Positions 1 to 30,748 of a stretch of 35,186 nucleotides of DNA are shown here, one piece after another; within the stretch, counting starts at the first letter, position 1; each line of letters starts with the position of its first letter. Source of the stretch: Candidatus Kuenenia stuttgartensis (GTDB taxonomy: Bacteria; Planctomycetota; Planctomycetia; Pirellulales; UBA1268); NCBI GenBank assembly GCA_945897435.1, contig CAMDFJ010000013.1, positions 1 through 35,186 of the forward strand, read 5' to 3'. Made by a program: the position numbers and the translations under genes. Under the pieces are notes generated by a model, which saw only the letters and a program-made list of their open reading frames with translations, had not been told where the DNA came from and did not search any database.

Positions 1-57
1 CGGCGGAGCCGGCCAAGGAAAATTCGGCACGATGCCGAGATTTTCCGTGAAGCAGCC
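1..57 (+). repeat. Two-hairpin repeat, copy A
   Basis: This copy has the full architecture seen again at 74-132 and 28498-28549. A short hairpin with a GGA loop lies at 1-12 (its first base is cut by the window edge). It is followed by the linker CCAAG (13-17), then a long hairpin: 18-23 pairs with 40-45 and 24-29 with 33-38, with loop CGA and a single bulged G at 39. The tail CGTGAAGCAGCC occupies 46-57. It lies beyond the 3' end of mgtE. Function is unknown. Confidence 0.7.
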
Positions 58-73
58 AGCCGGGTTAGCAACA

Positions 74-132
74 GCGACCGGAGGTCGCCAAGCAAAACCG
101 GACACTATGTCCGGGTTTTGCGTGAAGCAGCC
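74..132 (+). repeat. Two-hairpin repeat, copy B
   Basis: Second copy, 16 bases after copy A. The first hairpin is 74-79 paired with 83-88 around a GGA loop. The linker CCAAG is at 88-92. The second hairpin pairs 93-97 with 116-120 and 98-104 with 108-114, with loop CTA and a bulged G at 115. The tail CGTGAAGCAGCC (121-132) is identical to that of copy A. The stems differ in sequence from copies A and C but stay fully paired, which suggests selection on structure. Confidence 0.75.
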
Positions 133-136
133 GCGC

Positions 137-161
137 CAGGCTGAAGCCTGTCCCACATCGG
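137..161 (+). repeat. Short palindromic repeat, copy 1
   Basis: CAGGC and GCCTG pair around a TGAA loop, and TCCCACATCGG follows. All 25 bases recur exactly at 21695-21719. A variant with a TCAA loop is at 28432-28457. It lies between the two-hairpin copies and the end of mgtE, in a spacer with no gene. Confidence 0.75.
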
Positions 162-208
162 GCAGCACGTGGATGGCCTTCCGCGATCACCCGGGAGCGG
201 AGGCCTTG

Positions 209-21692: not shown

Positions 21693-21719
21693 GACAGGCT
21701 GAAGCCTGTCCCACATCGG
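21693..21719 (+). repeat. Short palindromic repeat, copy 2
   Basis: GACAGGC and GCCTGTC form a perfect 7-bp stem around TGAA (21693-21710). Bases 21695-21719 are identical to 137-161. It lies between the convergent Fur-family and purB genes. Confidence 0.78.
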
Positions 21720-21763
21720 ACAGGGATGCGAAGGGGTCGGCGAATGCTCGAGGAGCGTTCGGA

Positions 21764-28431: not shown

Positions 28432-28457
28432 GTGGAACAGGCTCAAGCCTGTCCCAC
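28432..28457 (+). repeat. Short palindromic repeat, copy 3
   Basis: GTGG-A-ACAGGC pairs with GCCTGT-C-CCAC around a TCAA loop, a 10-bp stem with one A-C mismatch. Related to 137-161 and 21693-21719 (same CAGGC/GCCTG core and TCCCAC), with an extended stem. It lies 38 bases after the clpX stop. Confidence 0.72.
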
Positions 28458-28471
28458 TTCAGACGGCGCCA

Positions 28472-28484
28472 GGCCCGGAGGGCC
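28472..28484 (+). repeat. Extra GGA-loop hairpin
   Basis: GGCCC and GGGCC pair around GGA. This is the same plan as the first hairpin of the two-hairpin repeat, and it lies 13 bases before copy C. It may be the remnant of another copy. Confidence 0.45.
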
Positions 28485-28497
28485 GGGTCAGAACCAG

Positions 28498-28549
28498 CCG
28501 GCGGAGCCGGCCAAGCAAACAACGGCAGGATGCCGTGTGTTTGCGTGAA
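28498..28549 (+). repeat. Two-hairpin repeat, copy C
   Basis: CCGGC-GGA-GCCGG (28498-28510), linker CCAAG (28511-28515), then a 12-bp hairpin: 28516-28521 with 28538-28543 and 28522-28527 with 28531-28536. Its loop is GGA, with a bulged G at 28537. CGTGAA (28544-28549) ends it, without the GCAGCC seen in A and B. It stops one base before the stop codon of the Rieske-SufT gene, between convergent clpX and suf. Confidence 0.75.
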
Positions 28550-28550
28550 C

Positions 28551-29345
28551 CTAGAAAATCCCCAGTTGGTCCCGGGCGGCCTCGGTCATCCGATCGGGCG
28601 TCCAGGGTGGGTCCATCACGATCCTGACCTCGACGGCCGCCACATCGGCATGGCTGCCGACGACTCGCTTCGTGTCGCCGATGAGTTGCGGGCCGGCGGG
28701 GCAGGCAGGGCTTGTCATCGTCATGTCGATCGAGACATGCTGCCTGCCCGTCGCCTCGGCGGAAGCCGCGATTGTGACCCCGTAGATCAGTCCCAGATCG
28801 ACGATGTTGACAAACAGTTCAGGATCCTTGACCTGTTTGAGCATTTCCCGAATGCCATCCTCGGAGAGCGGCAGTGCCGAGATCGGGTCTGGAGTCGGCG
28901 AGGTGGGAGTTGCCGTCGGGGTCGAAGCCGTGTCCGCCAGCGGGTTTTGGGAAGCACCGGACGGGGCAGCCGGAACAGTGCCGATGGTGTGGGCCGCAGG
29001 GCCGAGCGGAGCGGACTCGTTCCGCAGGCGGACCCAGACGCCGCCGTCCTCGATCTTGACCTCGTGCGACCGCGTGGCCCGGACGGCGGGCATCGAGAGC
29101 GCGGCCCCGGTGCGGATGTCAAACTTCGCGCCATGCCTGGGGCAGGCGATCTTGTGGTCGATCAGTTCACCATCCACGAGCGGGCCGCCATCGTGGGTGC
29201 AGACGTCGTCGATGGCATGAAACTGCCCCCCGACATGGAACAGCGCGATCATCTCACCGTCGACGTCCACCAGCGTCTTGCCCGGGTCGGCAATCTCGCC
29301 AATGTCGGCGACCCGATGAAACGAATTCGACTCTTGAAAATTCAT
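28551..29345 (-). CDS. Fusion of Rieske [2Fe-2S] ferredoxin and MIP18/SufT domain
   Basis: A 264-residue two-domain protein. Residues 1-108 are a Rieske ferredoxin of the NirD type with CTH at 49-51 and CPRH at 68-71, giving the two Cys and two His of a [2Fe-2S] site. A Pro/Thr/Ala-rich linker spans about 110-158. Residues 160-264 are a MIP18/DUF59 domain: REMLKQVKDPELFVNIVDLGLIYGV, TMTSPACPAGPQL with Cys215, and VRIVMDPPWTPDRMTEAARDQLG, as in SufT. SufT helps mature iron-sulfur proteins. As the last gene of the suf run, 8 bases after sufD, the fusion probably couples electron supply or cluster sensing to cluster transfer; that part is inference. Confidence 0.88.
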   Translation of the reverse strand: MNFQESNSFHRVADIGEIADPGKTLVDVDGEMIALFHVGGQFHAIDDVCTHDGGPLVDGELIDHKIACPRHGAKFDIRTGAALSMPAVRATRSHEVKIEDGGVWVRLRNESAPLGPAAHTIGTVPAAPSGASQNPLADTASTPTATPTSPTPDPISALPLSEDGIREMLKQVKDPELFVNIVDLGLIYGVTIAASAEATGRQHVSIDMTMTSPACPAGPQLIGDTKRVVGSHADVAAVEVRIVMDPPWTPDRMTEAARDQLGIF

Positions 29346-29353
29346 GGGCTGAC

Positions 29354-30748
29354 TCACGAGATCCGTCTGATGCGACTGCCGATTGCCCGGGCGAGCGCCT
29401 CGCGGACCGAGGCGATCGTGATTCGGTCGAAGACCTGCTGGAAAAAGCCGGCGACGACGAGCCTCGCAGCCTCGTCCGCGGAGAGCCCGCGGGCCTGGGC
29501 GTAGAAGATCTGTTCGGCATCGACCCGGCCGCTGGTGGCGCCGTGGGTGCAGCGGACATCGTCGGCCTCGATCTCCAGTCCGGGGATCGAGTCGGCCCGC
29601 GAATGCTCCGAGAGCATCAGGTTGTCGTTCCGCTGGTAGCCGTCGGTCTTCTGGGCGGCCTTGTCGACCTTGATCATGCCCCGCCAGACGAGCCTCGATC
29701 GATCCTGCAGGGCTCCCTTGTAGAGCAGGTCGCTCTTGCAGGAGGGGGCCTCGTGGTGCTGAAGCGTGTTGTAGACGAGATGCTGCCGGCCCTCGGTGAA
29801 CATCACGCCGTTGACCTGGGCGTTGGCATGCCTCCCCACGAGGGCCACGTCCTGGGCGACCTGTGAGAGACGGCTGCCGAGGGCTCCGAGCGTCCACTGC
29901 AGACGGCCGTTCTCCTGCACGACCGCCTTCTGGCGTGCGAAATGCCAGACGCCGCTGTTCCAGTTTTGGAGATTGACCATCCGCAGCAGGGCGGCCTTGC
30001 CGACAACGATCTCGGTTCCGCCGCAGTGGAATCCGCCGGCCGAGCCTGCCGCTCCCCCACCAGCCGTCTCCGTGAGCAGCGTCGCCTCCGCACCCTCGCC
30101 AAGCACAACCAGCACGTGCGAGGTGTCGACCCCACCATCGCTGATCGCGGCGCTGACATGAAGGGGGGCTGCGATCTTCACCCCCGCCGGCACGTAGAGC
30201 AGGGCGCTCGCCCGATGGAAGGCTCCGTGCAGCGAGGAGAACCAGTCGCGCTGGGAGTCGATCACGGAAAACCAGTGCGGTTCGATCAGGCTGCCATGTT
30301 CGGCGAGCAGGCGATCGGCGGAGCCGAAGAGAACTCCCTGCCTGGCGATCTCGGGGTCGAGTTCCTCGCGGACGACATGCCCGTCGAGCGAGGAGAACCG
30401 GCCGGCGATCGCCGCATCCGGCTGGCCGCCGTTCGGGTCGTCGAAGAACGAGTCGGGAGACGGGCCGCCCGGACTGCTTTCCGGGGCGAGCAATCCCTGG
30501 GGAATGTCCTGGGATCGGGCGGCCGCCGGTCGCAGTCCCCAGGCCTTGGGCTTGAACAGCCGGAGGTCGGTCCGCATCCAGTTTTCGTCGCGACGATCGG
30601 GCAGGGCGAGGTTTGAGAAGGCCTCGAAGGCGGCCCGTCGGCGTTCCAAGGCCCATGCGGGCATGGAGAGCGATCCGAGCAGATGTTCGAAGGCTTCCCG
30701 GTCGAAGGCAGGCATCTGCTGGGGGGGCGCGGTCGCTGCTGTTGTCAT
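29354..30748 (-). CDS. sufD: Fe-S cluster assembly protein SufD
   Basis: A 464-residue SufD, partner of SufB and SufC in the scaffold complex that builds [Fe-S] clusters in the cytosol. The core beta-helix shows LLYVPAGVKIAAPLHVS and VLVVLGEGAEATLLTE. The C-terminal helical part that binds SufC reads EIEADDVRCTHGATSGRVDAEQIFYAQARGLSADEAARLVV, the SufD hallmark. The N-terminus is the usual helical region with RRDENWMRTDLRLF. The ATG at 30748 was chosen over an in-frame TTG at 30781. It lies 43 bases after sufB. Confidence 0.95.
   Translation of the reverse strand: MTTAATAPPQQMPAFDREAFEHLLGSLSMPAWALERRRAAFEAFSNLALPDRRDENWMRTDLRLFKPKAWGLRPAAARSQDIPQGLLAPESSPGGPSPDSFFDDPNGGQPDAAIAGRFSSLDGHVVREELDPEIARQGVLFGSADRLLAEHGSLIEPHWFSVIDSQRDWFSSLHGAFHRASALLYVPAGVKIAAPLHVSAAISDGGVDTSHVLVVLGEGAEATLLTETAGGGAAGSAGGFHCGGTEIVVGKAALLRMVNLQNWNSGVWHFARQKAVVQENGRLQWTLGALGSRLSQVAQDVALVGRHANAQVNGVMFTEGRQHLVYNTLQHHEAPSCKSDLLYKGALQDRSRLVWRGMIKVDKAAQKTDGYQRNDNLMLSEHSRADSIPGLEIEADDVRCTHGATSGRVDAEQIFYAQARGLSADEAARLVVAGFFQQVFDRITIASVREALARAIGSRIRRIS

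Follow-up and report, generated by a model that had tools for sequence, protein, structure and literature searches.

REP repeats are believed to rely on Y1 enzymes whose genes their own genome carries. Among the described systems that come closest to the one reported here are the REP/BIME/REPIN repeats of the GTAG super-family with their TnpA-REP (RAYT) enzymes (Di Nocera 2013, PMC3733652; Quentin 2018, PMC6006769). The CGTC REP super-family, on the other hand, consists of single stems of 8-9 bp with loops of 4-5 nt and an unpaired CGTC tag, and has also been described as orphan, i.e., as being without dedicated transposase (PMC3733652). Class-3 TnpA-Y1 enzymes display the motifs NHVH, W[TA] and Y....Q (Quentin 2018, PMC6006769), and the corresponding systems, which include planctomycetes among their hosts, carry a CnGA foot 5' of the structure (PMC6006769).

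Here, a structured repeat is described from the window, meaning the whole stretch of 35,186 nt of DNA that was analysed. It is best read as a genuine repeat of the REP-like type that belongs to one planctomycete family and, hence, as a variant of the known REP kind. With REP/BIME/REPIN it shares short, covarying and bulged hairpins, high copy number, an intergenic or 3'-end location, clustering, genome-specific sequences and presumed movement in trans, and it likewise forms imperfect palindromes that lie between genes in many copies and whose stem changes are compensatory. Unlike those repeats, however, it comprises three hairpins per unit, forms head-to-tail arrays and keeps a spacing of +1 nt to stop codons, while a paired, mismatched CAAG/CGTG takes the place of the unpaired GT[AG]G foot and no Y1 gene was found in its genome. 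Since the alignments (A1, A3 and A4) show no unpaired GT[AG]G preceding the hairpin foot on its 5' side, and since no Y1 gene flanked by the repeat was detected in its own genome (whose assembly is not complete and frequently breaks at the repeat), the element has not been filed as a RAYT-type REP. CGTC repeats are similar in being high-copy palindromes without dedicated transposase, but the 12-bp bulged stem, the 3-nt loop and the paired CGTG of the element differ from them in stem, loop and tag, which speaks against membership. Atypical high-copy structures, planctomycete hosts and the presence of the enzyme in some family members recall the class-3 TnpA-Y1 systems, whereas the enzyme distribution does not match that of the element and class-3 genes are flanked by other repeats, even where the element lies nearby (relatives G002 and G014); it was therefore not assigned to the class-3 repeats either. 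Finally, IS200/IS605 ends come to mind in that the hairpins have on either side a short conserved flank similar to a cleavage or target motif, yet the element has neither a transposase nor paired left and right ends enclosing a gene.

Architecture of the repeat unit

The original prediction was that of a two-hairpin repeat in three copies (A, B and C; Table 1), and both sequence inspection and folding against shuffles establish these copies as real and structured. Single-strand folding yielded z values of -4.0, -5.8 and -6.1 relative to dinucleotide shuffles and reproduced the hairpins described, including the 12-bp stem with a 3-base loop and one bulged G. The copies form strong hairpins on either strand. 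Only after extraction of all copies with their flanks was a larger unit recognised. The complete unit measures 83 nt and contains three hairpins, with the additional one, H2 (GGCCC-GGA-GGGCC), located upstream of the two predicted. A short spacer separates H2 from H3 (GCGACC-GGA-GGTCGC or GCCGGC-GGA-GCCGGC), which is directly adjoined by H4. The latter combines the 12-bp stem, 3-nt loop and bulged G with a foot, CAAG/CGTG, in which C-G and A-T pairs are followed by an A.G mismatch and a G-C pair, and then AA. What had been taken for a linker (CCAAG) and a tail (CGTGAA) is hence not free, being mainly the two sides of this conserved paired foot.

Copy C has an intact H2 and copy B only part of one; copy A is truncated before it, as the window starts with base 1 of contig C13. 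Copies A and B form a head-to-tail pair (75 bp). The convergent neighbour of copy C (28551-30656) encodes Rieske and Fe-S assembly/SufT-like domains according to domain searches. The motif CCAAG-N25..35-CGTGAA occurs four times in the window compared to 0.11 expected occurrences, one of the four (at 2394) being a chance match in coding sequence, and genome-wide 80 matches face 9 for the reversed control.

Table 1 Coordinates of the repeat copies and associated features in the window
Feature	Position	Strand	Remarks
Copy A	1..51	+	Model match 33-83, 62.9 bits, 5' end cut
H3 of copy A	1-13	+	5' cut
H4 of copy A	14-49	+	With foot CAAG/CGTG, then AA
Copy B	54..126	+	75.5 bits
H2 of copy B	~54-69	+	Partial
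H3 of copy B	74-88	+	
H4 of copy B	89-124	+	With foot, then AA
H1 repeat	137..165	+	Beyond copy B; matches CAGGCTGAAGCCTGTCCCACATCGGGCAG
H1 repeat	21695..21723	+	Alone, without element; matches CAGGCTGAAGCCTGTCCCACATCGGGCAG
H1 repeat	28438..28466	+	Directly before copy C; matches CAGGCTGAAGCCTGTCCCACATCGGGCAG
Copy C	28467..28549	+	Complete 83-nt unit, 105.3 bits
H2 of copy C	28472-28484	+	
H3 of copy C	28497-28511	+	
H4 of copy C	28512-28547	+	With foot
AA of copy C	28548-28549	+	
TAG stop of convergent gene	28551..28553	-	CTA on + strand; 1 nt beyond CGTGAA end of copy C

Covariation and the level at which the structure acts

Among 28 distinct copies of the own genome, 14 of 26 pairs are changed on both sides and 96.4% of the cells are paired. 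Stem changes do not break pairing as often as they keep it. The claim that every pair is kept comes close, with two qualifications: about 3.5% of the cells are unpaired, and recombinant copies exist (C17:29303, C49) in which an arm of one stem type is joined to an arm of another. The covariation score amounts to 0.348, compared to at most 0.070 for slid controls, in which the pairing partners were moved by 1-3 columns. For the relatives (91 matches from other genomes), 18 pairs changed on both sides, 96.6% paired cells and a score of 0.429 versus at most 0.079 for slid controls were obtained, values which lean towards structure because this alignment had been made with the model as template.

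In an RNA under selection, G.U but not A.C would be acceptable on the RNA's own strand. Departures of the G.T and the A.C kind are about equally frequent (22/18 and 20/19), so that the structure looks DNA-level or two-stranded rather than confined to one RNA strand, a small-number test that is supportive, not decisive. A structured RNA as primary identity, another option of the original prediction, finds no support in these counts, there being no G-U excess over A-C on either strand, nor in Rfam, where no family was matched at gathering score. The same observations bear on the reading of the repeat as a structured 3'-UTR RNA signal (a stabiliser, processing site or terminator) selected at gene ends. 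While hairpins that are strong on either strand would suit such a signal, the equal G.U and A.C departures without strand preference, the missing Rfam family and the head-to-tail arrays speak against it, and together with the positional evidence given below they render it unlikely.

As separate observations, three loci (L023, L035 and L036) carry recombinant hairpins whose 5' and 3' arms stem from different types and are unpaired. The same group of loci includes a very divergent GC-rich copy (C50:14783) in which the foot and the stop codon at +1 are kept.

Distribution and genome-specific stem types

The covariance-model search proposed with the original prediction did recover further copies, 103 in the own 3.0-Mb genome (G000). 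Within the genus, 5/5 other genomes also have copies, as do 10/19 further genomes of the family (15/24 in all). With the same model, the element was found in 0/15 genomes that belong to other families within the order, and under stricter filters a 199-genome sample of the class gave no match outside the family. Among the genomes covered by these searches, the element is thus restricted to one planctomycete family. A pattern scan of a genome collection added at least four real records, all of them planctomycete metagenome assemblies, most of the listed matches being chance. No published description of the element was found in the literature searched.

In the own genome, 19 H4 types can be distinguished, none of which was seen in any of eight relatives as far as these were sampled, and three types account for 48 of 68 own copies. 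Genome-specific stem types of which few dominate indicate spread within genomes.

Genomic location and junction rule

With genes called by a simple procedure based on open frames and GC3, 56 of 57 copies proved to be intergenic. The neighbouring gene on the side of the CGTGAA end is oriented with its 3' end towards the element in 40 of 52 cases. An antisense stop with an open frame behind it is located exactly +1 nt from the CGTGAA end in 14/64 copies of the own genome and, independently, in 11/62 of the relatives, whereas no such stop occurs at 0, 2, 3 or 4 nt in either set. The base preceding the +1 stop is C in 23 of 25 cases. Counted without reference to genes, YAG is found at +3..+5 in 50 of 126 copies against a background of about four per offset, i.e., about thirteen times as often. 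The right junction hence has the consensus CGTGAA-NNYAG, and the left end also begins with YAG. From these junction statistics we infer that the junction represents a motif for targeting or cleavage that reads CTR on the opposite strand.

That the copies are intergenic, frequently come closely behind a stop and prefer one orientation would also suit a 3'-UTR signal. Such a signal, however, need not sit exactly +1 after a C-TRR stop, as an insertion target does. Moreover, five relatives are without the element at the orthologous end of the gene neighbouring copy C, two of them keeping an H1-like repeat (see below) alone at this site. Terminator-like matches at copy C are short and weak as well: in a loose scan one 6-bp partial hairpin on the minus strand passes, while the full stem of copy C is not followed by a T-run and full hairpins elsewhere generally are not either. 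On grounds of parsimony, insertion at site C in the own lineage would be the simplest reading, with deletion elsewhere as the alternative.

Local copying and the H1 repeat

Head-to-tail arrays are common, and their tandem units exhibit shared spacers and partial deletions. At three loci (L049, L311 and L262), spacer and element were duplicated in tandem and one copy was later deleted or decayed, the second copy being reduced to its two ends at L049 and to remnants at L311 and L262. Direct repeats of 20-55 nt flanking the element were considered as target-site duplications and rejected, because most are better explained by such tandem duplication of spacer plus element. In view of the tandem units with shared spacers, their partial deletions and the common recombinant hairpins, it could be argued that the repeat has multiplied by replication slippage, repeat recombination and gene conversion only, with no mobility at all. 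Yet many isolated copies occupy unrelated intergenic sites and share a fixed junction sequence, which requires dispersal in addition to local copying and makes this explanation highly improbable.

A separate hairpin repeat, H1 (CAGGCTGAAGCCTGTCCCACATCGGGCAG), often stands beside the unit, giving rise to a 122-bp tandem period. H1 is independent of the element, since the genome contains 148 copies of it (one mismatch allowed) and one of them stands alone in the window. In relatives, H1 analogues with other stems are found, e.g. ACAGAGCTGGAGCTCTGTCGCTACG in G004. In another planctomycete assembly (L140:543-750), copies of the element and of a terminator-like hairpin (CCCCGGCTCCCGCCGGGGCTTTTTGT) take turns along a tandem array, which could terminate transcription there.

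A proposed model for movement in trans

Among the options of the original prediction, a REP/MITE-like element mobilised in trans is the best supported: about 100 copies are scattered between genes and cluster in tandem, stem types are specific to each genome, the junction context is fixed, and an orthologous site lacks the element. The mobilising enzyme that this option implies was not found. The repeat is probably a REP-like non-autonomous mobile DNA element of a planctomycete family that is cut in trans, most likely by an enzyme of the HUH type. A single-stranded state, e.g. on the lagging strand, would expose the hairpins to an endonuclease acting in trans, for which the HUH type suggests itself by analogy with REP/TnpA-REP and IS200/IS605. 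This enzyme would cut beside YAG (CTR on the other strand) and join copies at new CTR sites. Surviving copies would pile up 1 nt after stops because C-TRR is a stop preceded by C and because selection removes insertions in coding sequence. Local tandem copies may result from slippage or recombination at the hairpins, and an effect on mRNA 3' ends, if any, would be secondary. That the REP-like family is moved by a non-Y1 enzyme, with the target one base after stops sparing coding sequence, appears possible, if somewhat doubtful.

The family puts the rule that REP repeats need Y1 to the test, since its copies, often near-identical, number about 100 while a Y1 enzyme could be detected neither in this genome nor in most of the genus. 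The fixed +1 stop spacing offers a concrete and checkable target rule for repeats that avoid harm to genes, and with the junction motif and covariance model, further genomes can readily be searched for the family.

Candidate mobilising enzymes

In the own genome, neither the Pfam profile Y1_Tnp nor a class-3 profile detected a Y1 transposase or class-3 TnpA-Y1, respectively, and no reverse transcriptase was found. A retro-element route was rejected on this ground and because reverse transcriptase genes do not track the element. Two genes for IS91-type Y2_Tnp are present in the own genome; as mobilisers they were discarded, being absent in the element-rich genomes G002, G005 and G013, with no element near the genes examined. 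Across relatives, copy number tracks none of the HUH genes tested. In G002, a gene lying between two copies was considered as cargo and dismissed, since, judged from its translation alone, it reads as an ScpB-like host gene. The assembly has a completeness of 96% and frequently breaks at the element, with 16 sites within 300 nt of a contig end compared to an estimated ~4/103 expected, so that a repeat-flanked transposase gene may have escaped detection. This caveat is eased in part by the five sister genomes of the genus, only two of which show Y1 matches, one of these being a truncated fragment.

Class-2 Y1 genes of relatives were likewise rejected as mobilisers, since none of those examined is flanked by the element and their distribution does not track it. 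Several are flanked by short inverted repeats of their own (GGTGCCAGGCACC type). Three such genes (L098, L100 and L091), which lie between short inverted repeats (GGTGCCAGCCACC / GGTGCCAGGCACC type), resemble the TIR-flanked transposases of Di Nocera (2013).

Class-3-like TnpA-Y1 genes occur in five genomes of the family, and their alignment resembles the published motifs (PMC6006769). A repeat moved by these proteins would accord with an element copy ~90 bp from a class-3 gene in G002 and ~200 bp in G014. Nevertheless, the genes are nested in different palindromic repeats of their own, G015 has the gene and no element, and six genomes (G000, G001, G003-G005 and G013) contain 28-104 copies and no class-3 gene. 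As, in addition, the published CnGA foot lies 5' of the structure while the CGGA of the element is in a loop, mobilisation by class-3 proteins is considered very unlikely. Together with their palindromic repeats, the class-3-like genes possibly represent a new REPtron set for planctomycetes. Five of them (L092, L094, L095, L096 and L102) display the motif FFLTWTTYGSWLPGD...HVHVVVSA...RWWT...YV.ECQDKPR.
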